From assembly GCA_011316305.1 (NCBI GenBank), contig SAUG01000074.1, positions 124,001 to 188,000 on the forward strand: a DNA stretch of 64,000 nucleotides, read 5' to 3'. Position 1 is the first letter of the stretch. The number at the start of each line of letters is the position of its first letter. The position numbers and the translations under genes are program-made. Source of the stretch: Rusavskia elegans. Taxonomy: Eukaryota; Ascomycota; Lecanoromycetes; Teloschistales; Teloschistaceae. Positions 1-16,400 of this stretch are shown here, piece after piece. The notes beneath the pieces are model-generated. The model saw only the letters and a program-made list of their open reading frames with translations. It ran no database searches and had not been told where the DNA came from.

Positions 1-2514
1 GGCTTTGTTACGGAGGCTGGCGCGGTAGCTGTAGCGCTCGGGGGAGTATGAACCGTCGTTGTTATTGATGGTAGTGTTAGATGAGGTGGGTTGTGATTGA
101 GACAATGGCTGTGTGCGAGCTAGAGGACTGGGTTCGGCGGGGAGATGAGTATCTGAGACGGAGAGTTTCCGAGGTTTGGGTGGCCGTGGTGGAGCCGGTT
201 TCCGGAAAACACGCTCAGCTATGGGCGCTTTCGAATAGGGCCTGATGTTGTTTTGGGTGGAAGATCGAAGGATTGAGGGCTTTGAAGGAGGACGAGGGGC
301 AAGAGAGCGGTCGGTTGATGTCGAGATTGATGATGGGGATTCCAGTAGCTCGTTATCGGTCATTGATCGTTTGACTTGGGTGATGTCCTCGTCGTCGTCG
401 AAGTCGATCAATTTACCCATAGCCGGCTGGGAAGGGGCGGTGCTTAAGTTACTTGCGGATCGAGTCTGCAGTCTTGAAGGGAGTCTGGGTCGCTCTTCAA
501 AGTCCTTAAGAGCTGCCTTAGATCCATTAGAAGTGGTACTGAAACTGTGTGCCGGTGTCGATCGAGGTCCATTCTTGCTCTTTTCGCCACTCCCGTTGAT
601 TGATGAGTCGAAGAACCCTTGGGGCGTCGTTGTTGTGACATCGCGAATGAAGACACCCAAGATGCGCCCTGGATTGGCCTGGACAAGTTCAGTGTAGAGT
701 TCAAGATCGGCTTCACCGCTGTCCCCAACGAGAATGAAACGCCTTTTTGGAAAGTCGGACAAAATCCGCTCAAGTGTCCCCTTTTTACGTTCGGCGACCG
801 GCTCAAAGATCCCTTGAAGCATGCCCGTGTAATGTTTGAGATGAAAGGAACCTTTGGGAAGACCAGCACCGGACAGAAAGCTCATCGATACTGGGAAGAG
901 CTGCCAAGGCATGTTGGACACATAGTGAAGCTTGACACCCATGCTTGCCATCTTCGTGTACCACTCCTTAACCCCATCGATACGGAGATCGCCCAGATCA
1001 CGGATAAAGACATTGCGAAAGACTTCTCTGGCGCCGGCGCCGATGGCAGAATGTTTGATTGTATCATCAACATCGCTTATCAGACTGACACCCTGAGGTT
1101 CCGTGATATGTATATCCTCCGTAGCCGATAACTTGTCAGAGGCAAGAACGCGGACATGAGTTGGTATAAAGTCCAAAGCAGCCCGAAGATTGAAATGACC
1201 AGCTTCGTTCGTATAGATCGTACGTGATCGAGATGTCTTCTCGTTGTAGAAAAACACAGTCAGCGGTGTACTTGTGAGAGGCGTGGTAAGAAAAGGCTTA
1301 AGTCGCAACATCATGTGGGCATTGGCAGTCGAAAGCTCATCAGAACTCATGTCTGAAGGATGATTCCATGATGCTCTCTTTGCCAGTGACCCTGGACCAG
1401 GCGCATCGTCTTGTTCTTCGTGGTACGCCGAGGTCTTCTCTAATGGATGTGGTGCCTTTCCATTGATGGAGCCTCTCGGTGACGGTGTTTTACTGCCCAA
1501 CGGAGTACTTCTATTGCTTGACCTGTCAACTGGTTGACTCGGCGCTTCGCTGTAGCCACCTCGCCAAGCAACGTCTTGCTCCCCTTCACCCTTGAGGATT
1601 ATGGACTCGGCTTGCTTCTCGACTGCTTCTTGCTCATGCCTCTTAGCCCGAGCCTCGACGCGAAGGTGGTGCGCTGAATCAGGACTCGCAGCACGAGGGC
1701 TCGCTGGCGCAGGGATACCACTCATCCTCCTCGCCAGCGCTATCATGGCTCGGTTGTATCTGGATATCTGCCCTTTGTGTGGGGTGTAGACCCAGCCCCG
1801 GACGTCGACATCCACAACTGAATTCGCCTCCTCATACCTGTCCCACTCTTGTTTGACATAACCCGAAGTATCCGGCGCATCATGCTCTCTTCTGTCGTGT
1901 AATGTTCCTGGCAAATTCTGGTGACCGGATCTCCCTGGGATATGCCGCCTTGCATAGCTTGGAAACAAAATCATTTCCTCGTCTCCACTTCGGGCAATGG
2001 CGACATCGGGGAAACTGCCGGGCACGCCCGATGTATCGTACTGCGCTGCACCATCATTTTGCGGCCCATAAACGTACGCTTGTGTGTAGGATTGCCTGAG
2101 CTCGTTGGCGGACTTGAGGATGCCAGCCAGCTTTTTCCGCCTTGTCCCTTTTCCGAGAGCCGACTCGTTGTCACTGCCATATTGCGCCATAGCTTTTTGT
2201 ATTGCTGTGCCTAATCTTGTTCTATTGACATTGTCCGGAGCGGAAAGGCGAGATGCTCGTCGCCGGGTGAGCAGGCGTGACCAGAAGCCTCCCCCGGCTG
2301 CCTTTCTCTGCCGGAGCTTCGCTTGCCGCTTGAGGATGAGCTGATAGATGCGGGACTGGGCTTGGTGACGATAGCGTGGCAGCGATTCGTATCGGAAAGC
2401 TGTAAAGCGTGCTCGTGCTCGTTTGGTGGTTTGCGGGAAGAGGTAGTTGAAGAGCGAGAAGGTGTTTTGTGGTCGTGCGAGCACTCGAGCTCGGAGTCGT
2501 GGTGGAGCCAGCTT
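1..2514 (-). CDS. APP1: APP1-type phosphatidate phosphatase (DUF2183), C-terminus beyond window
   Basis: Mg-dependent phosphatidate phosphatase of the yeast App1 kind, which makes diacylglycerol from phosphatidate and acts at cortical actin patches and endocytic membranes. One open frame on the minus strand runs off the window start. The HAD-like catalytic motif DVDDT lies at about 1061-1075, followed by KHSAIGAGAREVFRN, then GVKLHYVSNMPWQLFP, KGSFHLKHY and FILVGDSGEADLE, which are the family blocks in the right order. A long Ser/Pro/Arg-rich tail with PPRPPKPRK follows, fitting SH3-ligand tails of App1. An ATG at 2190 opens MAQYGSDNES and RRKKLAGILKSANELRQSY, a usual family start, but the frame stays open upstream to 2514 (rich in Arg and aromatic residues). 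It there meets an acceptor-like TACAG, so a short 5' exon around 2552-2680 is likely and its exact start is unsettled. Family call is firm; the 5' end is not. Confidence 0.9.
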
Positions 2515-3354
2515 CTGTAGATTGGTTGCAGGAAGATACAGTTGCTCAAACCATTATTATTGTTGGTAGTGTGATGATGCTTTGGGGTTTGGGTATGCGG
2601 CGATGCTCTGCGGAGGCGGTGGTATGGGGAGCGGATTGCATGGTTGACGCTGAAAGGAAGCTGACAGCTTTCGAGATCATGACAGATATCAATTATACCT
2701 GGGGTCAGTCATTGTGATGCAATGAAGGCTTCGTGCGACCACATCAGTTGAGTATTCGGGAGGAAAGCTACCTTACTGTCGTGTGATGACGCTTGGGGAA
2801 AAAGGTAGCTGGGAACAAGCTCGCCCCGGATAGTCACGAATGCTGATGCAGGCACCACTCTATTCTTACATGAGAGTCGCATCAGATTTATCCATTACTC
2901 GATCACGGAAGATTCCTTGAATAGATGGGCAAATGTGGTTTGTATTTCCAAAGCCAGATGGTATCTACCCCTTTCCACTGGTTTAGCTCAGTCAAAAGCC
3001 ATATCCATCACGCCAATATGATGAGTATGCATGCTTATTGTTGCTCTAACTACATGAGATCTCGCATCCTGGTCTTGTGACACCTTTGGACGCCAGGAAG
3101 ACTCCGTTGCTCTTGCTGATGCTTTCTTGGTGCAACAGACAGAGCCAGTGATGGAAGAGGACCGTCAAAGGAAATGAAACCCCTGTAATCCCCTGCAAAC
3201 TGATAACACATCTTGTCGAAAAAGTGTCTGAACCTGCAACCGCACGTCTCAAAATGCATTCTGGCCCTTTATGAATTCCGGAGAACTCAACCTCGTGTCC
3301 ACTCACGTCTCCATGATCTTCTCCACTCACTGCGCGCTTCAATTAGTTACCTCG
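2515..3354. other. intergenic region upstream of APP1-like gene
   Basis: Between two minus-strand genes. It should hold the APP1-like 5' leader, a candidate small first exon (ATG at 2641 or 2680) and the 3' untranslated region of the YRA1-like gene. No further gene is supported; the reading frames here look like chance frames. Confidence 0.5.
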
Positions 3355-5446
3355 TTAAGGATCGTGAGCAGAAAACCATACAGAAATCTCATCCATTCCC
3401 AGATCATCAGCTCCATTAGCAACCGGCTGGACTGCACCATTCGTCGCCACTCCATCATTACCCTGCACAGTGCCGTTTGCTGCGTTCGTGTCAAAGTAAT
3501 CCGTCATCTCCGCATCGAGCTCGTCAGCCGTCTTGGGCTTGGCACGACCTGCATTCCGGCCACGGCGGCCTCCACGTCCACGTCCTCGGGCGTTATCCCG
3601 AGTGCCAGCGCCGTTGGCAGTGGCCTTGGCGGTAGTCGCTGGTTTGGGTCCTTTGTTGTTCCTGGAATGGGTAAGCGATGATGATTCCAAGGTGTGATTA
3701 TGCAGATCCATACGTGATGCGGTCGCTGAGACCCTTCGAAGGCACGGCAGCTACTGCTTTGGTTGCGTCGAGAACAACTTCGATCTGGAAAGGATTAGAA
3801 GGAATCTGGAAGGAGCTGGTTGAGCATGATGCAGTACCTTCATCGGCCGCTTGTCGACTTGTACACCGTTGAGGGACTCGAGAGCTTTGGCTGCACTCTC
3901 AGGCCTTGAGAAGACGATGGTGACAATGCCTCGCATGACACCGTTAGGTCCATAGGTGAGATGAACACGCTTGACAGGTCCAATGGTGTCGCTGAAGTAT
4001 TCCTAGAAGAACGAGAACGACCAGAGTTAGTCGAACGGCAGCCGCCAGGATTTTATACGAGTTTCGCAAGCTGAAGTAAAGGACAAAGCAGGAGTAAGCG
4101 ATAGTGACCGGACTTTGGAGTGACATCCTGAACCCCCGAGTGAAGAAAGCAGTTTGCGACACGGATGAGCATCAGCAAGCGAGCAGTGAGTGTTAGTAGC
4201 GGTTAGTAGAAACCGTAGGAAGCCAGTGTCCGAGAGATCCATGGTCCAGTCTTCCGTGTCTGGTGTCCAGTATTCTGGCCGATATCCAGGTGTCCAAGCC
4301 AAACTCCCCGCGCCCAGCCGTCGCTCTCAACTTTTATCATGCAAAAACCTCAGCTTGCACCATCCATCACTCCAAGTAACAGAGACATCTCCAAACCACG
4401 ACAACACATCGCCATAGCCACAGTCACACACATACTGCCAGAGCACTGGAGGTTGATCGAAGGCCACACAATTTGCCAATCTCGCCAAGCCAACTTCATT
4501 ACGGCTCAAGTATGCTTCACTAGGTATTCCCGTGTGAAGCGTTGTTGCAGCCGTGTTGCGTCGGCGGAGTCCAAAGAACTTTGACCAGGACGCAAGGAAC
4601 AATCGAAGGATCTGGATTGGTGTCGAAATAGGTTGACTTAAGCTTGCCAGATGTTGCATGCTGTTGCGGTATAAACCGAAGGGAAAATTTGTGTGCCCGT
4701 CAGGACGCTGTGCTGTGCTGTGCTGTTCTCACTGCTTTGCTCGCTGATGCTCAAGATCACAGCCAGGATGAATGGAATTCTTCATCTCATCATACGACCT
4801 CTTGCTCATCTTCGCTTCTTCATGACCACAGCCTGCATGATGCTCGTATGGCCTGTTTGCCAGACAGGTCCATCATCTTCGCATCATCTTCTTGCAAGAC
4901 TGATCAACTCAACTTTCGATCGCTTTGCGTCAGGCCTCTGGAAGGGCGAGCAAAAGCCGAAGGAAGGAGTGATGTTTTGGTCACTGATCCGCACAGCCCA
5001 CGTAGAGTATATATGCAACGATGCACCAAGGAAAAACACGGTCCGCGCTCCGGGAAAGCTCGTTGCAATGCTCGGTAATCACGGAAGAGATGTCGAGGAA
5101 AATTCGGAAGTTCGATGGCCTCATAGTAGACATACCTTGACGTTCTTTTCGGTCACATCGGTGGGCTGAGAAGTATTAGTGATGTGCGCGCGTCGTACTG
5201 GAGTCGAAGAAAACTTGCCAGATTGCTCACGATGATCTTGGACTCTCCACTTCCAGCAGCCAGACCATTTGTCACGGCGGATTTCAAAGGGCCTCTGACG
5301 GGTCTTGTGTTCTTCTGGACCCCTGCGACAGGTGCGGTAGCCTTCCGGGCAGCGTTGGGAGCACGTCGACCTCCACGCCCGCGACGACGAGCAGTGCGCT
5401 CAGTCATGACGACGTCGTCAAGAGCCATATCAAGTTTGGCAGACAT
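3355..5446 (-). CDS. YRA1: mRNA export adaptor Yra1/ALYREF (REF family), five exons
   Basis: Nuclear RRM protein that couples transcribed mRNA to the UAP56/Sub2 helicase and the Mex67 export receptor. Exons on the minus strand: 5219-5446, 5136-5165, 3838-4002, 3714-3784 and 3355-3661, about 266 residues. The N-terminus starts MSAKLDMALDDVV, the UAP56-binding motif, then an RG-rich segment. The RRM runs IIVSNL / PTDVTEKNVK / EYFSDTIGPVKRVHLTYGPN and continues through VMRGIVTIVFS and ALESLNGVQVDKRPMKIEVVLD; the slashes are splice junctions. The tail has GRGRGGRRGRNAGRAKPK and a second UAP56-type motif, ELDAEMTDYF. Intron 1 begins GCAAGT rather than GT, and intron 2 is 1133 nt; the other two are near 50 nt. 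The last residues are uncertain, because a GTATGG site at about 3397-3402 could start a further intron giving an end at DEIS. The start is supported by the conserved N-terminal motif. Confidence 0.93.
4003..5135 (-). other. 1133-nt intron inside the RRM of the YRA1-like gene
   Basis: Bounded by donor GTATGT after AAG (exon 2 end) and acceptor TTCTAG before GAATAC; a CTAAC branch-site match lies about 25 nt before the acceptor. It is roughly 20 times longer than the other introns in this window. Frames inside it have no protein-like character. Yeast YRA1 is known to have an unusually long, poorly spliced intron used for autoregulation; whether this one has the same role is inference. Confidence 0.88.
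5166..5218 (-). other. GC-AG intron 1 of the YRA1-like gene
   Basis: The donor is GCAAGT and the acceptor CTCAG, with CTAAT as branch site. Splicing here joins IIVSNL to PTDVTE, which restores the RNP2 region of the RRM exactly. Using the nearby GTGAGC instead would delete VSNL, so the GC donor is the better reading. Confidence 0.85.
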
Positions 5447-6434
5447 TGTGTTGTCTTTGATGAGATGCTATTTAGATTCGGTGATATAAGTGTCGACTGC
5501 AAAGACAAGGCTGTCTATGCGGCAAGGATGTCTTCGAAGTGATGGCTTGAGAAACCGAGAGCAGTGACTTTGATGGCAAATATGGAAGTCTTGGAGGGTA
5601 TACTGGCCCGTTCGTGGTCTCTAAGTCGACGTGAGGATTTTGCGAGAGGATAGCTGTGTGAGCTCAAGGTAGCTGCCGCGCGTCCTGACTCGGGTCTGGC
5701 CCTCGATATGACTGGCCTGATAAAGGCGAGAAGATAGCGCTGTGAGCGCAGATGATGGTAAAGTAAGTGTGACTGGCCCTCCCCGACTTGTAGTGTGGTA
5801 TAATGATGGACAAAGTATGATTGCGGGTGGTGGTGATTGTTGAAGAGAAGAAGGAAATCTGGCGCCTAAAACTAAGGTAAAAGGACCTCGCGCTAGGCCT
5901 GAAACAGTTGCCCCTTTCACTCATCAGTTTTTGACCATTCACGTGGGCTAAAATTCAACAATTCAATAAAGAAACTTCTATTGAACTGTGTCAAAGCTTC
6001 CGAATCATATCTGTCACTACTTTTGTAACAAAACGTGATCGGAAAATTCAGTATTTGGCATTGTTACTTCGTCGTATGTTCGAGCATGTATTCCCCCTCA
6101 ACCACTCGACAGAACGCCAGAGCCAGGATCATTATCAATCATCCAAGAGCCTGAACTCCTAGTCTGCTCCCATCTCTATGTTCTAGAGAACTGAAACGTA
6201 TGATCGGCGGAGAGTAAGGTGAGTGGTGGTGGTGGGTGGGTGATTAGGAAATCGTCTCGACGAGGTGCTTGCTCCTTGAAGTGAATGCACCTCTTCAAAG
6301 CTTCCGCCCTTTGCTCGAGTGCTCCAGTATAGCTTCACCAATCCTTGTTATTGCCGAATAAATTTCGGCGTTGAGCTTCGAGTGTCTGCGAGGGGAAGTC
6401 ATAGTCGGTACGATGTTGCCATAGTCAATGCACA
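5447..6434. other. intergenic region between YRA1 and VPS24 genes
   Basis: About 1 kb holding the YRA1-like promoter and the 3' region of the VPS24-like gene. Frames here are short and not conserved-looking. No RNA gene was seen. Confidence 0.5.
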
Positions 6435-7159
6435 TCAACTCTTCAATGCCTCCAACCTCCCCCTCATCTCCTCCAACGTAGCCTCCTGCTCCTCCGCCTC
6501 CTCCTCCACGGGCTCCTCCACCGCCGGCGTCTCCACCTTCCCCAGCTTCCCCTGCAGAATCTCTCCCAACACCTTATCGACCTCGGTCTCGGCCTCTTCA
6601 TCCTCCCCTTCCATCAACTGATCATCCGGCAAACTATCCCCCACCATCTCCTCAATAATGCCCGCCTTCACCAACTCCTGGCTCAATTCCCGCATCGTGC
6701 CCGTCAACTCCGGTAATCGCACCAGAGAATTGACATCCTTCATGATGCCCGTCGAAGCCTTGATGCTGCCCTCGATTTTGCGCACCGAGAAAGCTTCATT
6801 AACTTGCATCTGCACGCTCTGCAGCTGTGCTTTGCTCGTCGCCAAGCGAGAGCTCTGTTTGCGTATCCTGATCATTTCACGGGCGAAGGTGCGGGTTTCT
6901 TTGGCGGCCTGGGCGGCTCGCGAGGGGTCTTTCTGCCCTCGCTTGGAGGCTTGGATGATGTATTGGCGGGTTTTGGAATCGAGGAGTTTGAGTTGGGAGA
7001 TGTCGCGGTCGAGTTTACGGGTGTTAGATCGGATTAGGCTGTTGCATTTTCGCATCTGCAGCGCTCATTAAATAGTGCTTGGATGAGGTTCCGGAGATAT
7101 TTGGTTGGTACCTGAGCTGCTGGGTCCGGCTTCCAGAAGACGGCCTTGATAGACTCCAT
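6435..7159 (-). CDS. VPS24: ESCRT-III subunit Vps24/CHMP3, two exons
   Basis: Subunit of the endosomal ESCRT-III filament, which with Vps2 caps Snf7 polymers and recruits Vps4 during multivesicular body formation. Exon 1 (7112-7159) encodes MESIKAVFWKPDPAAQ. A 56-nt intron (GTACC donor, GCTGCAG acceptor) follows, then exon 2 (6435-7055), giving 222 residues, the usual size. The basic N-terminal helices (CNSLIRSNTRKLDRDISQLK) form the membrane-binding core. The C-terminal half is strongly acidic. The final EEMRGRLEALKS fits the MIM1 motif (D/E-x-x-L-x-x-R-L-x-x-L-K) that binds the Vps4 MIT domain, with Met in place of the first Leu. The start was chosen because MESIKAVFW is the family N-terminus; a start at the exon 2 Met would lose it. 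Confidence 0.93.
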
Positions 7160-7622
7160 GGCTGGAGAGTGCTCTTGCGCTGTGAGAGTTCGCAAGTGGT
7201 TCTTCGTTCACATACTGTTACTGCTGGAGGGCGCTTGGCGATGCCTAAGCGGAGCAAATGACGTGGGGTTGTGGCCCGCACAAGAGATTTCTGTCAAACG
7301 GTAGCACGGCGGTCACACTTGTGAACTCCATGCTGTGAATAGAAAGAGGGCGTACACAATAGGTGAAGATAAAGACATGGCTCATTGGGGTCTCGTAGGG
7401 GTCGAATTGGAAGTGTAGATCTTGGAAGCGCACCGCTTCGGTGGGGATCTAAAATGTTCTATGAGATCAGCCCTGCGATGGCAGAAATAAATCAACCACC
7501 ACTACTCTAGTAAACTTCATACACAATTCCTTGCCAACAACAAACGCATTGCAAGTCAGAGCGAGCAGCTCTCCCTTCAGCCTTTCTATATCTTTCTCAC
7601 CCCCCAGACTACAATCACCGCC
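7160..7622. promoter_or_regulatory. divergent promoter region between VPS24 and SBA1
   Basis: The two genes point away from each other across 463 bp, so this segment must contain both promoters and leaders. A pyrimidine-rich stretch (about 7565-7620) precedes the SBA1 start with CCGCCATGTC around the ATG. No specific factor site is claimed. Confidence 0.6.
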
Positions 7623-8465
7623 ATGTCTAACACGCAGACAACCCCAGAAGGTAAGGCTATCCCAACTCCCAAAAAGTGCAGCCTTCCTAACCACCTTCCC
7701 CACAGTAACCTGGGCGCAACGATCTTCCTCAAGCGACCCCCAGAAAAATTACATCTACCTCACAATCGCCGCCCCGGACGTCAAAAAAATCGACGTGGAT
7801 CTCAAAGCCACCGGCCTAACCTTCACCGGCCACTCCGACACCAAGAAAACAACCTACCACGTCGAGCTGGAATTCTACGCCGAAATCGACGTCGAAAATT
7901 CCAAGACGCATCATACATCAAGGGACGTGTCTTTTGTGCTGCGCAAGAAGGAGCTCAAGGAGGACTACTGGCCTCGTTTGTTGAAGGACAGCCAGAAGGT
8001 GCATTTCTTGAAGACGGATTTCGATAAGGTGAGTGGATGTTCTTGATCTCCGCTTTCGTTGGCTGAACAGTGCGCTCGCAGTGGGTTGATGAGGACGAGC
8101 AAGAGGGCGCGCCCGATGATGCGATGGCTGGTATGGGCGGTATGGGAGGAATGCCTGGTATGGAAGGCATGGGAGGTATGGGAGGCATGGGCGGTGATGG
8201 AGGCTTCGGCGGCATCGGTGAGCAACCTCAAAGACACTAACGCCGTACCTATTACTGATCACACAATGCAGACTTCTCGAAACTCGGAGGCGGTGCTGGC
8301 GACATGCCTGACATGGGCGAAGGTGCTGACGATGATGACGACGATGATGACATGCCTGCACTAGAAGAGGGTGATGCAGACAAGAGCGGAGACTCAAAAG
8401 GCAAGGCGGCAGAGAAAGCCGATGATGCTCCGGCAGCAAAGTCCAAGATTGAGGAGGTATCCTAG
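7623..8465 (+). CDS. SBA1: Hsp90 co-chaperone p23/Sba1, four exons
   Basis: p23 binds the ATP-bound, closed Hsp90 dimer and slows its ATPase during client maturation. Exons: 7623-7650, 7706-8028, 8082-8217 and 8272-8465; all introns are GT-AG and 51-55 nt, giving 226 residues. The CS domain starts EVTWAQRSSSSDPQKNYIYL and contains IDVDLKATGLTFTGHS. The p23 signature follows as DVSFVLRKKELKEDYWPRLLKD, then KVHFLKTDFDKWVDEDEQEG. The tail is Gly/Met rich (GMGGMGGMPGMEGMGGMG), typical of fungal p23, then acidic with a run of eight Asp and MPALEEGD. The splice before VTWAQR is confirmed by the joined codon GAA-GTA. Confidence 0.95.
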
Positions 8466-8731
8466 ATGCGGTGGCAATTGCCAGACCTTCAGCGCTGCTA
8501 GCTACGGGCTAAACGGCGGGCATAGGCGTTGCGGATGAGCTGTGAATAATGATGCGGTACAAAGCATGATAGACCGGATAGCTAGTGGTTCATGTTTGTC
8601 AAAAGCATAGGAAAGATCGAGACGTTGTCGTTGACAGCACATCGAAATAGTTCAATAAGAATTGAGTGACATGCGAGGTCGAACAACTTTCTACTGATTT
8701 CAACGTCCAGATATGGAGAGTATGTGCAGGG
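8466..8731. other. convergent 3' region
   Basis: Short gap between the stop codons of two converging genes. Only 3' untranslated sequence is expected, and no terminator or RNA gene can be assigned. Confidence 0.5.
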
Positions 8732-9973
8732 CTACCACCTCTTTCCTCTGTTCTCATTGAAATTGCCGCCTTGCCGTTCCCTCTCCACCCTCGCGTCAAA
8801 CTCGTTCTGTGCCTCATCTCTCGCCAGTTGTCGCTGCTCGTCATCACTCGAGAACGCAAAGCTATCTCCCGTCGTCGAACCCTCTTGTTGCTCTTTCTTG
8901 ACCGTGTTCCATCTCTGGGCGTTCTGCTTTCCCCTTGAGGAAGGATTCTGCGCCTGCCTCCGTATCCGATCCCAGGCATTACCACCTTGACCTTGTTCCG
9001 CACCACCATCAGCAGTCGGGCTAGCATCATCGAAAGTGTCATTGAAACTCCTCGGCTGCTTCTCCACCTTATCTAGTCGGAAAGTCGATGCCCTGTTTTC
9101 AGTGGGACTGTCACTGGGCGAGGCCTGCTGTCTTGTCTCCTGTACTCGCATCTGAGCATCACTCATGATTCCTGTATTGCTGCCTCCAAGCCTTTCAACC
9201 TCCCCACCATAGCCATCAGCGCCAGCGCTCGGGCTTGCATCGTCGAAGCCTCCAATATCCTTCCGATGCCTTTTCCATAAGTCGCTCACACTAATGTCGC
9301 CCTGCCCGGTCGGATCTTTCGACTCTGATTTCATGGCTTCGGGATCCCCTTTCCGTTGCTTGATCTTCGCATATACTGTATCTGTGATATCTTTCAATCT
9401 AGGATCCCTCAATTCTCCGACAGCAGCGACCGTCGCGGCATAAGAATTGATGATGAGACCTCCGAAGAATATTGCCGCAGCTAGGTAGCCGGTAGAACGG
9501 AAACCATGCATCAAGAAACGAGCATTGCTTCCTTCCGAGACGGTTTGTCCCATGATGCGAATCCTTGAGCCATCCCACCATCCCCCCTCTTTCTTCAAGT
9601 CGCCCCACAAAGGATAGCGGTAGTTCTCTCTGGTGCTGAAAGCTCGAAACATGCCGAAGGTACAGGCTATTGGCACGCCGATGCTGCTTATTGTTGCACT
9701 CTTATACGCATGGAATACTATGGCTTCACGTTCCTTTTGTGAAAGACGGCGTTGCATCGCTTCCGTGTGGTACTGCAGTCTCATCGTGGCGAGGTTCGCG
9801 ATGTATGTGTTGGTGTAGCCGAAGAGAGGACCTATGATTGGGGGTGGGTGGGGCAGTTTGCTGAGGTCGATGGAGGAGAAGTCGGTGGAAGTTTGGGAGC
9901 TGGTATCGTAGGGATCTGGAGTATCGGGGGAGGCATCGTAAGAGTCTGGGATTGAGGAGGTTTCGAGGACCAT
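8732..9973 (-). CDS. conserved-looking fungal membrane protein, function unknown
   Basis: Single-exon frame of 413 residues; I do not recognise a named family. Residues 1-45 are Ser/Asp/Pro rich. Residues 46-90 (PPPIIGPLFGYTNTYIANLATMR and onward) look like a folded segment. A hydrophobic stretch lies near 93-110 (ATISSIGVPIACTFGMF) and a second near 160-185 (TGYLAAAIFFGGLIINSYAATVAAVG), so two membrane passes are likely. The last 200 residues are polar and low in complexity, with DDASP repeated twice, and end in ENRGKRW. GC content and codon use match the neighbours, supporting a real gene. It converges with SBA1. The ATG at 9971-9973 is the first in frame. No function is proposed. Confidence 0.8.
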   Translation of the reverse strand: MVLETSSIPDSYDASPDTPDPYDTSSQTSTDFSSIDLSKLPHPPPIIGPLFGYTNTYIANLATMRLQYHTEAMQRRLSQKEREAIVFHAYKSATISSIGVPIACTFGMFRAFSTRENYRYPLWGDLKKEGGWWDGSRIRIMGQTVSEGSNARFLMHGFRSTGYLAAAIFFGGLIINSYAATVAAVGELRDPRLKDITDTVYAKIKQRKGDPEAMKSESKDPTGQGDISVSDLWKRHRKDIGGFDDASPSAGADGYGGEVERLGGSNTGIMSDAQMRVQETRQQASPSDSPTENRASTFRLDKVEKQPRSFNDTFDDASPTADGGAEQGQGGNAWDRIRRQAQNPSSRGKQNAQRWNTVKKEQQEGSTTGDSFAFSSDDEQRQLARDEAQNEFDARVERERQGGNFNENRGKRW

Positions 9974-10390
9974 GACTGCGTTTCGATGTATCTAATGACC
10001 GGACTGGTGAGACTGGGCTCAGTTGTTGGGGTTTTGGGATGCGACCATAGTTCACGTCTCAGCTAACCCATAATTGTGAAAGAAAGTTTGCAGAGTATGT
10101 TTGACAAGAATCATTGAATGACGATGGAGGTGACGTCCTAATGCTAAGCTACTCGAGGCGCACGGACCACGTCTCGTCTTGTCTTGTGTGCTCCTCGCTC
10201 CGCCTTCTCTGATAAGATTTGGTGTCCACGACAGATTAATAGTGTGAATGTGAGATAGACTCACACTACAACGATACCTCATCATATCCTAGTATCCACG
10301 CCAAAGCTTACTCATACCAAAATCAATGTCTCGACCCCTAAATGGGTACCAGTGGATAACAGAGTCCGCGGTATTGCCAAGTCAACAGCC
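9974..10390. promoter_or_regulatory. intergenic region, promoter of the membrane-protein gene
   Basis: It holds the leader and promoter of the minus-strand gene ending at 8732 and the 3' end of the small CaaX gene. No other feature is supported. Confidence 0.4.
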
Positions 10391-10657
10391 TTACATGATG
10401 ATGCATTTCTTGCCCTTCCCAACATCATCTTTACCCTTTCCTCCTTTTTGATCCTTCAAAAAGTCCGCGGGTCTCGGACCAATCTTGTTCTTATCGGTGT
10501 TGTTTTTGACTAGTTCCTCTTCGGCTCGTTCCCTCTCCTCTTCCTGCTCCTATATTGCTTAAGACGTCAGGGAGGGCCACATACGGACTGGCCTTCACGG
10601 ATTGGAACATACCTCCTGAGATTTTCTATCGTTATTTTCAATGACTGTCGAAGGCAT
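10391..10657 (-). CDS. 67-residue lysine-rich protein with C-terminal CaaX box (CIIM)
   Basis: Two exons on the minus strand: 10613-10657 (15 codons, ATG in CCAACAATGCC context) and 10391-10549 (52 codons plus TAA). The 63-nt intron has donor GTATGT, a CTGAC branch match and acceptor TATAG, and both junctions keep frame. The protein starts MPSTVIENNDRKSQE, continues as an acidic/basic helical segment (EEERERAEEELVKN), then GPRPADFLKDQKGGKGK, and ends GKGKKCIIM. A polybasic stretch followed by C-I-I-M is a canonical CaaX box; Met at X favours farnesylation, as in K-Ras-like proteins. This suggests a peripheral membrane peptide. I do not recognise the family, and the role is unknown. It lies between a membrane-protein gene and tRNA genes, with no operon-like linkage. 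Confidence 0.78.
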
Positions 10658-11338
10658 TGTTGGCTAGAATTATACGAGATTGCTCGGTGGTTCAGGTACT
10701 CAAGGGTCTCGGCTCGATATATGTTGCGGAAAATGGGCATTCAGGAACGCATTTATACGTTGATCTGACAGGCCAGGTAAGAGAGCGTGGGTTTGCTTGA
10801 GAGAGCGAGCTAGAAAAGAAGGTGCGTCGCTTGCCTCCTGCAGAGCTGCGATGTCATTCTGATGGGTTTTGAGCTGGCAATACAGATTGGCGCTAGGGAC
10901 GTGGACCAGATATCAATTTGGCTCGCTGGTGCTTGCTTCGCGTCGTCGATGACTCCACATACTGGTCGTCGTGTTGAGACCTCTTTGAATGCGAAAGTGC
11001 TGAGCGATATGGAGATGACGTGTTCTCCGGTGGGTCCTGATGCGTTCGCCTGCATATTCGTGGATGTACGGAAAAACCAAGAATGAAGAACAGGATCGTT
11101 GGCAACCACGATGTCAGACCAGCTTCACCCATGGTAAGGTAATAAGACATGCACATGTAGACTTAGCGGTTAACAAAGAGAATACTGAAGTATCAGACTT
11201 CTCGATGCTATTGCTTTCTGGTCTTCTACGATTGTTGAATAAACCCGTACCTCAAGATTGGGATCTGAATATCGCAACGCTCATTGCGTTGAAAAAATGT
11301 ATATAGTGATTATTATTGCAAAACCCATCATCTTGGTC
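10658..11338. other. intergenic region upstream of CaaX gene
   Basis: About 680 bp with overlapping frames on both strands, none of which looks like a protein with recognisable features. It should contain the CaaX gene promoter. Nothing else is supported. Confidence 0.4.
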
Positions 11339-11481
11339 GTCCGAGTGGTCTGTACGTACAACCATTCGGCCCTACCTCCGCAATCTTTGCTAATCGTCCC
11401 ACAGAGTGGTATGATTCTCGCTTAGGGTTACAACCCAAGCATGTTTGCGAGAGGCCCCGCGTTCGAATCGCGGCCCGGACC
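11339..11481 (+). tRNA. tRNA-Pro (anticodon AGG) with two interruptions
   Basis: The 3' part is a clear tRNA-Pro: GGTATGATTCTCGC, anticodon loop TTAGGG...T, and GCGAGAGGCC. The T arm is CCGCG-TTCGAAT-CGCGG, the acceptor 3' strand CCCGGAC, and the discriminator C. A Pol III T-run follows at 11487-11490. An 18-nt intron sits at the normal place after position 37. The 5' acceptor strand GTCCGAG (one mismatch, pair 6, as in yeast tRNA-Pro) and TGGTCT are found 53 bp away, separated from AGTGGTATG by an insertion at 11352-11404. Joined, the D arm reads TGGTCT-AGTGGTATGATT, identical to the yeast tRNA-Pro D arm. So either the gene has a second, non-canonical intron or it is a disrupted pseudogene. 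Confidence 0.82.
11352..11404 (+). other. 53-bp spliceosomal-intron-like insertion in the tRNA-Pro D arm
   Basis: It begins GTACGT, contains TTTGCTAAT about 10 nt before its end, and ends CCCACAG. These match donor, branch and acceptor of the 50-60 nt introns in this window. It falls between tRNA positions 13 and 14 and splits the Pol III A box (TGGTCT|AGTGG). Confidence 0.75.
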
Positions 11482-11489
11482 CATTCTTT

Positions 11490-11819
11490 TGGCATTTTTG
11501 AGAGCCTGTGAGTCAACTGGAGCTTTTCTTTTGGCTAGGGAGGTGGAACCCGGACTTCTGACAGTTTGTGTGTGCGCATGTGTGACAATATGAAGCGGCG
11601 TGTGAACTGGCAGGGTAGTTAGCGCCCACCATTGCACCTGCAGGCGGGGAAGGCCCAAAATAACGGAAGTTTCTAGTTTTTCAACCCCCTTGTTGGAAAA
11701 ATCCTGTCTGTGATGTGACACTGGAATATCTATACTTACATCGTCAATCCTCCAAAACGAAGGCGCTGCCAGTAGACAAAAATTCTCACCCACGGCCTTT
11801 TCAAGGAGCAAAAACGGAA
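11490..11819. other. spacer between tRNA genes
   Basis: No gene is supported. It contains GT-rich stretches near 11560-11600; the frames here are short. Confidence 0.4.
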
Positions 11820-11903
11820 TGCCCCCAGACAGATTTGAACTATCGGCCTTTGCATGCCTCATCTTCTTACAAGTGCAACGCTCTACCCCTGAGCTATAGG
11901 GGC
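11820..11903 (-). tRNA. tRNA-Thr (anticodon TGT) with 12-nt intron
   Basis: Read on the minus strand, all arms pair. Acceptor is GCCCCTA with TGGGGGC, D arm GCTC-AGGGGTA-GAGC, anticodon stem TTGCA/TGCAA with loop CTTGTA...A, and T arm GATAG-TTCAAAT-CTGTC; the discriminator is A. The 12-nt intron lies after position 37. A and B boxes are intact. Confidence 0.93.
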
Positions 11904-12002
11904 AATTGATGTAATTCCAATAATTCGGTAATACAAAAGATATACAACTTTATGGGTCTGATATCAAATTTCTAACGTCTCCTGAAGCATCCGCAGCTTT
12001 TC

Positions 12003-12085
12003 GCCCCCATAGCTCAGGGGTGGAACGTTGCACTTGTGAGAAGAAAAGGCATGCAAAGGCCGATATTTCAACTCTGTCTAAGGCC
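12003..12085 (+). pseudogene. decayed tRNA-Thr copy in inverted orientation
   Basis: It is closely similar to the functional-looking tRNA-Thr at 11820-11903 but on the other strand. The D stem is damaged (GAAC for GAGC), the T loop changed (TTCAACT), and the acceptor 3' strand reads TAAGGCC. Several changes are G to A or C to T, as RIP would cause. The pair is separated by 99 bp and could fold as a large hairpin. Confidence 0.85.
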
Positions 12086-14239
12086 CAGGTATCTATTTGC
12101 CATGTGCTGATTTTGTCCTACGATTGTGTGTTTCTTCTACAAGATGGTCATCTTCGAACAAGAACAACCAATGATGTGTCACCAAGACGAATCATAGTCA
12201 TTTTCTCAATCATGACCCTTTGTCTTCCTGTATCTCGCGCTTTTGCAGCTCATCATCATGGGAAATCGTTGGAAGAAATACCAGATATCTTAAAGCTCAT
12301 CAATCTCGATTTTCTATTCCGCTATCGCTCTTACTATGACTTCTATTGTTTCCTTTGACACCTGTCATCGATTATCTGTCACCCATCGCGTCTAGTGCCA
12401 TCTCTGCTTTCTCGCCTATCATAACGCTATTTAGTCAGCGCTCGAATGTCTGGAAGTCCAAAATAACGAACTCTGCTACATTCTGTCAACATAGGGCCAC
12501 TAAAGGAGACGATGGGAAATCACGATACACAGCCATAAGTGAGATTAAAGCTACGAGGCTGAATCGAACAGACGAGGAAGGAAAAGAAGTAATGTATATC
12601 CCCTCCCCTACCGGTTCTGGCAATCGAATCAAGGGCACGTCTGCACAGCGCCCCTCGCCGTGTTAGAATGTTAAGAGAAGCCAACACAAATGGTATTGGT
12701 AATTATCGTAACGAGGTCCTATATCCAGATACCGACTGTTTTAAACCCCATACTGCCATTTTCACAACCACCAAGTCAATCTCCGTCGCCGCCTCGACCC
12801 CAGCAACCGGGGAATTCAATGCCTTATCCTATGCCTCTGTCTCCAGCCTCCCCACCATCTTGTTGTATGCTGTAAGTGGCTCTCGTATGAATCTCCAACC
12901 TCCTCTCCATCTCGTTGTGCGTTGGTGGTGACTACCTCGCTTTGTTTGGATACCGATGCAATAATGCACTCTTCGGGAGACGCTGACTTGAAACGGTTCG
13001 TCCGTGAATGCTTGAGGACAACCGTAAAGCTCAGATTGATCTATCTGGAGGAAGGCACTTACCTTCTGGATATCGGGTTGGGACCGGCTGTTCCAGGGAC
13101 GATATTCACGGTTCCACTGGTCGGTTATATCCCGTTTCATACCACGTCTGGTAGCTTCACTGTCTAGGTACGACCTGTTATTTCCTTGACACGTAATTTC
13201 AATGGACTGGTTATCACGGTACATTCATCTGAAGGCAGGCTCTGTGCAGTATCTTCATTGCATCGCTGTATGAAGCGAAAGATCGGTGGCTACTATCGTA
13301 CCTGACATAGGCTTCAAGATGCATGCTACCACGGGATTGGTACGCTGTCCATAAGCAATCCAGTGTGCGGGAAAATTACGCTTGTATTTCATAGAAATGA
13401 TAAGTTCTTTCCTGATTTTGTTTCTTTCTGGGCATGATGACTTCAATGTTTCTCTGAAGGAGGCCGTGTCTGTCTCGAAGTATGGTGACGGATTATTTCT
13501 CTTGGTTAAGTGTTTCAGGGATGTTGGATGCCAATCGGAGATGCGCTCATCGATTTTGTCATTCTCCAGATCAGCTTTTGTATGTCAAAGGCTGGCAGTA
13601 AGGATCTTTCGGGTAGATCTTGTCTTGGTCGTATCACTCATGATCAGGTTTGCTCAACCCATTTGTCTGGTGGGGTGGGCAGTCGATGCCACGACTGCCA
13701 ACCAAGTCGAATGCCCGAACAGTACATAATGTAATTGTGCGCCATGTACTTGTCTGGGGGTATGAGTCTGTGTGATCGAAACTTGGTTCATGGCCGCCTT
13801 CGCAGAAGTGCTGAGGGAGTGCTGTCCAGACATGCAGCTTTCGAGTCAATGTTCATGATAGCAGTATTGCGTGTCGAGTACTGGAATGTGTGTGTATGGA
13901 GGATGTCTGTGGAAGCAGCAACAAAGATGCGCGAACGAGTTTTGTTTGTCGATCAAACATCTATGGGATTGGTCCGGCTCATCGCTGTCAATCGGCGTCC
14001 CATCTGTGATGTGCTCCATCTGATTTGACCTTGGTCTCCGACTCTGACGATGCGTTGGGACCGACTCCATCTCTACCTGCCCAAGATACTCGGGATCGTC
14101 TTCAAGGCTCACAGGCTTTTTTCACTGACATCCAGAATTTCAAGTAATTCCAACTCGTTGCGCGTCATGCTGGAGATGCCAAGATAGTTATAGATGCCCT
14201 CGATGGCTACGTCTTCAGTGTCATCTTTATTCCTTACTT
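12086..14239. other. border zone without supportable genes
   Basis: Composition is intermediate between the gene arm and the AT block. Many short frames occur on both strands, none with recognisable domains. Minus-strand fragments near 13850-14110 are acidic and Ser/Arg rich and may be part of the decayed helicase unit beside them. I see no intact gene. Confidence 0.4.
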
Positions 14240-14905
14240 GCCCTCACCTCATGTCTTATTCTCTTCCATGCAAGACTATCGTGAGCCGCGGACAATTCGT
14301 CATTCGCCTCATTGAGAAGATCAACCATCAGGTTTTGTATCGGCTGGGTGTGGCTCCTAGTGGCAAGGTCCATGATTGCTTTGTCCAATGCCTCGAGTCT
14401 CTTTGCTCATCGTGGGAGTTTAACACTTTGCAATTGATGATGAGCACCTCTTGATGCTGTGCAAACTGAAGAGATATATCTTCTCGTCCAGACCAATCTG
14501 GAGAGGGTATCTACCCGGTAGTATCCGCCCCCATGCCTGGATTTCGTGTGACGCACTGAGCGCGGCTGTGGTCACAAAGGCCCCCCAAGAACAATAGTCG
14601 GCCTTCGTTGCTTGTGAACAACAATATACATCGATGTGAGATTTGTAAGGCTCGCCGTGGACATAGGAAAGACTTGCGCCAGTGTAATTGATCGTTCTTG
14701 AAGCCAGGAACATGACGACATTCAGCACCAGCTAACCGGACTTCAGTCCTAAACCTAAAAATGTGTTCAATACAGCTGTATGGTCCAACGCCGGTGAGGC
14801 TCCTGGTCGAAGTCTGTCCCTGAGAAGTCCACGAAGTACTTAAGGTCTATAGCCTCGAAGGAGCTTTCGATATCGTTCAAACGGTAGACGAGGTCAATCC
14901 GCCGG
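14240..14905 (-). pseudogene. decayed SNF2-type helicase C-terminal fragment, copy 2
   Basis: Minus-strand pieces in shifting frames match the C-terminal helicase lobe. RIDLVYRLNDIESSFEAIDLK lies near 14830-14900, AFVTTAALSASHEIQAWGR near 14530-14590, and VLIINCKVLNSHDEQRDSR near 14400-14455. LDKAIMDLATRSHTQPIQNL then follows near 14330-14390. These are motifs V and VI (Gln and Arg of Q-x-x-G-R kept) and the tail of a Snf2 family protein. The order is the same as in copy 1, but stops and frameshifts break it. Confidence 0.72.
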
Positions 14906-15840
14906 TTGTATGTGAGATTGGAACATAACCATGGGAAAATGCGACGATCAAAGCCTTCAAGTCCGATTCCTCGGAGTCAGTTGAGGAGTCGTCAAGATAC
15001 AGCTCCCCGTCCTCATAACCTTGTTTCCAATCTTCGTCGCTCTTCTCATACTCGACGTCCTCTATTTCCTATTCATCATCAAGTAGCTCTTTGTTACTTT
15101 CACGTAGTAATTCCTGCCTCCCTGTGCCATCAATCGGGCGATCCACCGATTTTCGCATCCTTGCCGAGCGTCGACTCTCCTCCGCTCTCCCAAGATCTTC
15201 TGCTGATGGCGTATCCTTCGATGGGCCAGGCCCAGATTGATTTGGAGACGGCGACTCGTCCAGATCCATAGGGTCACCAACACCCTTCGCCCGCTTTTGT
15301 CCGTCACGGCCAAGCGTCAGGGTGAAAGGAGACTCCGTATTGACGTCAAGCTCTTCGGTTGCTTATGTTTTGAGCTGTTGCCCGCGTGATGGGCGTCTTG
15401 GACTTCTTGGTCGTGTTCGTTAAGAAGTTGGACGAGCATTTGCTGCACCGCTGGATCTGGGTAGCCATGTCTGTGATGGCCTTGCGGGTCTGACGACTGT
15501 CTCGGAACTCATCGTTGATATTCTTTACCTTGCATCGAACAACGAAGACGTTATGCAGCTGAGAAAACTATTCAAGGAGCGATTAGTACAGTCCGCCCCA
15601 GATCGATCTGGGAGGAGAGCATACCCTTATGCCACGACCACGCGCCTGAATCTCTAGAGGTGCGTTCAGCGCCGCTGTCGAGACCAGCACACTATGCGAT
15701 CCTCGGTCGAGATTTGCCCCTTGGAATCCTTCGGGATAGATAAGATTTATGGTTTGAAGGGAGCTTTTGAGATTATTGAATCGATTGACAAGGTCAACCC
15801 CCTGATTTGTTGAAATGATACATGGGAGCGTTTTGGTAAA
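14906..15840 (-). pseudogene. decayed SNF2-type helicase C-terminal fragment, copy 1
   Basis: GVDLVNRFNNLKSSLQTINL, GANLDRGSHSVLVSTAALN and LEIQARGRGIR (15625-15805) are the HELICc region of a Snf2 family ATPase. A convincing intron follows (15559-15624: GTATGC donor, TACTAAT branch, CTCAG acceptor). Then come LHNVFVVRCKVKNINDEFRDSR and, after a frameshift, AVQQMLVQLLNEHDQEVQDA. A Ser/Pro/acidic tail (MDLDESPSPNQSG; EDVEYEKSDEDW) runs to about 14920 with an in-frame stop. The N-terminal ATPase lobe is absent. It lies beside the AT block, so decay by RIP leakage or drift is plausible. Confidence 0.75.
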
Positions 15841-16400
15841 AATTTAGAGGTAGGCCAGAGGAAATTAGAGACGGTGAGTAATTTTGGATTGGAAATGGAA
15901 GATTGTTAAGAGACACGAAAATGGTGAATGGATTAAGAAGGGTACAAGGGGTATGAGAAGGCCAGAAGCATCAATGGCGTAAGGAAATGAAGGTATTAAA
16001 TTGATTCGATTTCAAGATTGAGATCTTACCGAATATTGAGGGTTTATATATGAACCGGATGACGAAAGATTGGTGAAAGGGGTAGCAGAGAAGATAGTGT
16101 TTGGACTCACAGTAGCAAGCGATCAGGGGTACGTCTTCTGTGATTGTAGCGTCGACGGCCAGTAGGATAGGGGTTAAACCGCAAGAAGGCCCAATTCCTT
16201 GATCTGACGCATGGTGTACCGTAGGGTGACCGACACTTCGGCTAGGTATTGTGGTCTTTCGAGGCGTGCTTTGGGCCCTCCATAGCTTTGATGATAGTTC
16301 TCTGACTTGGCTTCTGCATGTCCTGTTCGCAGTGCGGAAATTTGGTTGGCTTGTCAGGTTCACAGGCCCGTATACTTCCGCAGAAATCTCCAACTCCAAA
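15841..16400. other. left edge of the AT block
   Basis: It contains a minus-strand frame of 142 codons (15971-16399) with no recognised domain; it may be upstream remnants of the helicase copy 1. AT content rises sharply from about 16390. Confidence 0.4.

Follow-up and report, generated by a model that had tools for sequence, protein, structure and literature searches.

The split tRNA-Pro(AGG) gene

Positions 11339–11481 of the window (the whole stretch of 64,000 nt analysed here) contain a tRNA-Pro(AGG) gene whose D arm is split by an insert of spliceosomal type, as the sequence-only reading had proposed and as direct reading of the sequence and ARAGORN now confirm. The gene, the putative signals of the insert and the flanking elements are arranged as follows:

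11300–11305, + strand: TATATA at −39 to −34 relative to the tRNA start (candidate Pol III upstream element)
11339–11351, + strand: exon 1, GTCCGAGTGGTCT, comprising the acceptor 5′ strand and positions 8–13, the first 6 nt of the A box (direct reading, ARAGORN)
11352–11404, + strand: 53-nt GT-AG insert of spliceosomal type between tRNA positions 13 and 14 (splice-signal scoring)
11352–11357, + strand: putative 5′ splice site GTACGT, joint commonest donor hexamer (4 of 57 host introns)
11361–11369, + strand: ACCATTCGG, potential pairing partner of exon 1 CCGAGTGGT (11341–11349) in the predicted fold
11390–11394, + strand: branch-site motif CTAAT inside TGCTAATC, with the putative branch A at 11393, 11 nt before the 3′ end
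11400–11404, + strand: putative 3′ splice site CACAG (splice-signal scoring)
11405–11427, + strand: exon 2, comprising the remaining D arm, the anticodon 5′ stem, the anticodon AGG (11424–11426) and G37 (direct reading, ARAGORN)
11428–11445, + strand: 18-nt conventional tRNA intron after position 37, following G37 (ARAGORN)
11446–11481, + strand: exon 3, comprising the anticodon 3′ stem, variable loop, T arm, acceptor 3′ strand CCCGGAC and C73
11460–11470, + strand: B box CGTTCGAATCG in the T arm (direct reading)
11487–11490, + strand: TTTT, candidate Pol III terminator, 6 nt past the gene end

Direct reading bore out the size of the insert, 53 bp, and its two ends, GTACGT and CACAG, between which it carries TTTGCTAATC; the sequence right after it reads AGTGGTATGATTCTCGCTTAGGG, exon 2 opening with AGTGGTATGATTCTCGC at 11405. 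The locus as it stands was missed by ARAGORN and by the Rfam tRNA model at gathering scores, only the neighbouring tRNA-Thr on the opposite strand being reported, and ARAGORN reported no tRNA for the unspliced gene. Once exactly these 53 bp were removed, ARAGORN called a tRNA-Pro(agg) with an 18-nt intron, in agreement with the earlier observation that the two parts join into a tRNA-Pro D arm, and the removal of both introns resulted in a 72-nt tRNA-Pro(agg), a cloverleaf with a proline anticodon. Other particulars of the first description also held: the separate 18-nt intron is present at the normal tRNA position; the acceptor stem pairs in 6 of 7 positions, the mismatch being A6 against C67; and the A box is broken by the insert, which at the DNA level splits it after its first 6 nt. 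An alternative 5′ half with better pairing was looked for by eye in and beside the insert, and none was seen there.

The insert boundaries follow from homology to tRNAs, without recourse to the GT-AG rule, and they cannot slide, as the preceding base is not the same as the insert's last base, nor the following base the same as its first. The restored stretch TGGTCTAGTGGTATGATTCTCGC occurs uninterrupted in a tRNA-Pro(TGG) gene (record L117) on a contig filed under a Haloplasmataceae MAG, a filing that may not indicate the true source organism. The search behind this record fixed only the part from AGTGG onwards, so that the preceding TGGTCT is independent evidence. A target-site duplication was also considered and rejected: GAGTGGT flanks the insert, but collapsing this repeat deletes 8 nt of the conserved D arm, and the repeat is present because the tRNA-Pro sequence itself contains TGGTCT and AGTGGTAT.

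Regarding the surroundings, the minus strand carries the neighbouring tRNA-Thr(TGT) gene, with a 12-nt intron, at 11819–11904, and what looks by eye like a degenerate copy of this gene in inverted orientation lies ca. 100 bp away on the plus strand (ca. 12006–12092). The protein encoded at 8732–9973 (minus strand) shows 97 % identity with a protein of Rusavskia elegans, 93 % with one of Xanthoria sp. and 83 % with one of Xanthoria calcicola; on this basis the host is regarded as a Xanthoria-like lichen-forming fungus (Teloschistaceae). From ca. 16000 to 62000 the window consists of a block of 16–30 % G+C, with flanks of ca. 50 % G+C, resembling a mutated transposon-rich isochore.

Splice signals of the insert

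The insert was compared with introns derived from Ras-family genes of the same genome. The Ras search yielded 43 matches in 30 loci, of which 22 were used, the other eight being further exons of genes already in the set; these loci were aligned, in a splice-aware manner and requiring only GT...AG, to eight yeast Ras-family proteins. From the 65 introns derived we kept 57 (45–100 nt, distinct sequences), some of which are probably wrong and blur the resulting model. They have a median length of 58 nt, and 18 measure 50–56 nt, so the 53-nt insert is within the host range. Their commonest donors are GTACGT and GTGAGT (four introns each), CTRAY occurs in 40 of the 57 with the A situated 8–23 nt from the 3′ end, and TGCTAATC is among the commonest branch octamers (two introns).

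In leave-one-out scoring the donor of the insert exceeded 31 of the 57 introns, its acceptor exceeded 38, and its branch site TGCTAATC, with the A 11 nt from the end, exceeded 53; for donor, branch site and acceptor together the insert reached 20.4, above 46 of the 57. The insert fits the spliceosomal introns of this genome in length, donor, branch site and acceptor. Control 53-mers (31,258) were drawn from both strands of positions 1–16000 of the window without 11301–11550, whether or not they had GT-AG ends; none attained this score, their maximum being 17.7, and the insert was the top-scoring of the 60 GT-AG pairs of 40–100 nt found in 11239–11581. In 391,228 strand-bases of retrieved genome loci, which include real introns and overlapping loci counted repeatedly, the Pro(AGG) locus among them, there were 85 GT-AG pairs of 40–100 nt scoring at least 20.4 and 883 scoring at least 16.6. 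Splice signals alone are therefore not rare, and the argument is not one of uniqueness; the case rests on the coincidence that the best of the 60 GT-AG pairs is exactly the one whose removal restores a tRNA.

The insert, with its exact GT-AG ends at a site of a kind not seen before, could also be a copy of a mobile introner-type element spreading in the genome, which is a claim on its origin and compatible with its being spliced. We consider this very unlikely, because the insert matched only itself in a 171-base search of the genome, a search of limited reach that also missed tRNA-Pro(TGG), and because blastn-short of the insert against ca. 348 kb of retrieved sequence produced only matches of 11–15 nt.

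Predicted folding and endonuclease cleavage

The insert alone did not show any special structure (z = 0.42). The predicted fold of the precursor had a z of −3.54, with exon 1 CCGAGTGGT paired to ACCATTCGG at the start of the insert, precluding the cloverleaf. Positions 11341–11369 constitute a near-perfect inverted repeat of exon 1 and the insert start, with the 5′ splice site in the hairpin loop, and equally stable folds were obtained in 18 of 5000 shuffles of intron nt 7–22 in which exon 1 and the first six intron bases were kept fixed. The predicted pairing could hide the donor site in the precursor, and the hairpin may be due to chance, may be a trace of the origin of the insert or may act as a brake on splicing.

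The tRNA endonuclease might instead cut out the 53-nt insert at a bulge-helix-bulge motif, as it does with the non-canonical tRNA introns of red algae and archaea; nucleomorph tRNA genes provide further examples of non-canonical introns. In agreement with this, a 4-bp GTGG/CCAC central helix can form at the insert, only at shifted cut sites, but there no outer helix forms towards the exons, and the one towards the intron has 1 bp. No strict bulge-helix-bulge was found at this insert or at that of the tRNA-Lys gene described below, although this test discriminates poorly: the ordinary 18-nt intron of the Pro gene, at 37/38, forms no strict motif either. Moreover, the predicted unspliced fold does not contain such a motif, and cleavage by the endonuclease leaves GTACGT, the branch motif and CACAG unexplained, so that we regard this possibility as highly improbable.

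Copy number and candidate expression signals of the Pro(AGG) gene

Three patterns were searched in the genome (44.16 Mb, 217 contigs). The D-arm pattern, with up to two mismatches, had a single match, at the Pro(AGG) gene itself. The pattern for the 3′ half had 41 matches (36 in the reversed control), the sole perfect one being again this gene; 16 of the other 40, which contain one or two mismatches, were read and included tRNA-Pro(TGG) and tRNA-Tyr and no Pro(AGG). A gapped pattern allowing all proline anticodons identified only two genes, the Pro(AGG) gene and an intact tRNA-Pro(TGG) gene on contig C170. The number of other intact Pro(AGG) genes, which the sequence-only reading had left to be counted, is thus none by these three genome-wide patterns, which could miss a strongly diverged copy, and the tRNA-Pro(AGG) gene at 11339–11481 is apparently single-copy. 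The codons CCC and CCT make up 73 of the 124 proline codons in the Ras exons. As in yeast, tRNA-Pro(TGG) might read other proline codons, and Pro(AGG) may therefore be dispensable. The Rfam tRNA search of the genome scored 62 of 2276 candidates and missed Pro(TGG), Tyr and other genes found later, and therefore we do not claim the full tRNA set.

The gene has the B box CGTTCGAATCG and a candidate T-run terminator (TTTT, 6 nt downstream). TATA is present at −39/−37 and, between −30 and −42, in 14 of the 39 ARAGORN tRNA genes of the genome, a raw count without chance control in which some loci have less than 60 nt upstream. There is no internal TTTT in the 143 nt of the gene, which is uninformative, as 6 of the 39 ARAGORN genes have one. 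An intact A box is lacking, the best substitutes having two mismatches to the consensus and the one that spans the donor having three, and the acceptor pairs in 6 of 7 positions versus 7 of 7 in 36 of the 39 ARAGORN genes (best of several offsets).

Both the split A box and the A6–C67 mismatch count against function and, together with the hairpin spanning the donor site, agree with a disrupted pseudogene, in which intron-like DNA landed in the Pro gene and the transcript is either not made or not spliced. Nevertheless, no other Pro(AGG) gene was found by the three patterns; the D arm, anticodon arm, T arm, downstream T run and 37/38 intron are all preserved; and the splice signals of the insert surpass those of most derived introns (46 of 57). 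With a second tRNA gene carrying an insert of the same kind, these observations make a pseudogene unlikely.

A second candidate, tRNA-Lys(CTT)

The second case, which came from weak Rfam hits, is a 131-nt gene (G000:C141:348208-348338, minus strand; record L095, G000:C141:348150-348400) that reads as tRNA-Lys(CTT) and contains a short anticodon intron and a 50-nt insert. The latter (C141:348231-348280, minus strand) reads GTGAGT...AAACTAACTTGTTCCAG, with ACTAAC as putative branch site and CCAG at its end, and is placed, in our own numbering, between positions 50 and 51 in the T stem. Once it is removed, the variable loop and the T arm are those of an ordinary Lys(CTT), and the anticodon stem contains a single T-T mismatch. 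The insert scored 16.6, compared with a mean of 16.7 for the 57 host introns, and was the best of 29 GT-AG pairs at the locus; this score was reached by 5 of 56,400 random 50-mers from the retrieved loci. ARAGORN proposes an alternative structure for the unspliced gene, in which the anticodon intron measures 48 nt and the variable loop is too long, and an intact tRNA-Lys(CTT) gene exists (record L019). We thus regard the Lys(CTT) insert as a comparable candidate of spliceosomal type, although a weaker case than that of Pro; the occurrence of a similar insert in a second tRNA gene favours an intron over a pseudogene.

A pattern with a branch site and an acceptor just before a T arm had 32 matches in the genome versus 8 in the reversed control; these could include further split tRNA genes, or tRNA-like repeats, and no conclusion is drawn from them except for the Lys gene already described. 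Nothing was matched in viral contigs. Record L116 contains an Ile(TAT)-like gene, identified as Ser(tga) by ARAGORN, whose insert of 48 nt showed no credible spliceosomal intron by eye and was kept as a conventional intron.

Interpretation

We estimate a probability of roughly three in four that the locus is a functional tRNA-Pro(AGG) gene, apparently the only copy, in which two different kinds of intron occur, a judgement made from its sequence. Of the two possibilities offered by the sequence-only reading, that of a spliceable mRNA-type intron was strengthened by the host-like signals, the failure to find another Pro(AGG) gene and the Lys case, and that of a pseudogene was reduced to the unlikely alternative discussed above. 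It also seems fairly probable, if a less secure proposition, that spliceosomal introns entered nuclear tRNA genes at least twice, in the D arm of Pro and in the T arm of Lys, so that decoding of the commonest proline codons would require the spliceosome to process a Pol III transcript ahead of the usual tRNA splicing.

In the pathway that we propose, Pol III would transcribe the Pro(AGG) gene from its B box, aided by the upstream TATA and a weakened A box, and the spliceosome, acting in the nucleus, would then free the D arm of the 53-nt GT-AG intron, as the signals of this intron suggest. Folding of the tRNA and trimming of its ends would probably be possible only after this removal, and the 18-nt intron of the anticodon loop would leave last, through the established pathway of tRNA endonuclease and ligase. 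Since the excerpted text of PMC4090602 reports that the endonuclease subunit Sen54 contacts the D arm, spliceosomal removal would come first. The gene would hence depend on both splicing machineries, suggesting that the spliceosome, besides the tRNA-splicing enzymes, has to process a tRNA.

Introns of tRNAs and mRNAs are treated as separate worlds, with separate enzymes, and a spliceosome-dependent tRNA would cross this line. If this reading is true, the splicing pathway is accessible to uncapped tRNA precursors made by Pol III, a promoter inside a gene can tolerate being interrupted, and the translation of CCC and CCT is tied to splicing capacity, in organisms whose rRNA genes already carry such introns. 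Because ARAGORN and the Rfam tRNA model missed the Pro gene as it stands, more such genes may hide in published genomes.

Relation to known introns

Spliceosomal introns in the nuclear rDNA of lichen-forming ascomycetes were reportedly described by Bhattacharya et al. in 2000. According to the excerpted text of PMC8527467, lichen rDNA contains ectopic spliceosomal introns that are removed by the host, and yeast spliced such introns out of Pol I transcripts. The Pro insert is likewise an intron of spliceosomal type in a gene for a structured non-coding RNA outside the realm of Pol II, and its host belongs to the same broad group; unlike those of rRNA genes, transcribed by Pol I, it is in a tRNA gene, presumably transcribed by Pol III, and lies within the internal promoter. 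Among small structured RNAs, according to the excerpted text of PMC5832005, frequent interruption is known only for fungal U3 and U6, with tRNA unnamed there. The introns of fungal U6 snRNA and U3 snoRNA resemble the Pro insert in being GT-AG, with RCTRAY branch sites, and in residing in small structured RNAs, and U6 additionally shares Pol III transcription with the presumed Pol III gene of tRNA-Pro (excerpts of PMC5832005).

Nuclear tRNA introns lie after position 37 and are processed by the endonuclease and the Trl1 ligase (excerpts of PMC4090602), and the Pro gene has one of these, of 18 nt. The 53-nt insert differs from them in its location at 13/14, in its donor, branch and acceptor motifs and, as far as a weak test indicates, in having no strict endonuclease motif. 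It is similar to the non-canonical tRNA introns of Cyanidioschyzon merolae in being situated away from position 37, but these are assigned to the tRNA endonuclease (excerpts of PMC4090602). The word stem "spliceosom" is absent from two reviews of tRNA introns and tRNA genes (PMC4090602, PMC4033280), and a spliceosomal intron in a nuclear tRNA gene appeared in none of the literature matches listed, which come from a search with most subscription journals outside it. Ectopic spliceosomal introns were already known from lichen rDNA, U3 and U6, and tRNA genes as their hosts would be what is new.

Other tRNA-like loci in the genome

Isolated D arms of Leu/Ser type, that is, tRNA-like 5′ parts, occur at four loci (L099, L101, L102 and L103), and ARAGORN finds no tRNA in the sequence that follows them; by eye, the Ser(AGA) gene in L006 has a 5′ half that matches L102. 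A repeat resembling a tRNA (TCGAGAGGTTCAGTGTTCGAATC, with variants) is present in several copies, found in L035, L044, L053 and L057 and in further matches of the 3′-half pattern; the surroundings are A+T-rich in the four copies read, and the repeat may be a SINE or an element that derives from a tRNA and has mutated. Of the 39 ARAGORN tRNA genes of the genome, 28 have an intron at the anticodon loop or close to it, which is a high share. Additionally, two genes (L009 and L024) were read by ARAGORN as tRNA-Ile(GAT), an anticodon that is unusual for a nuclear fungal gene.
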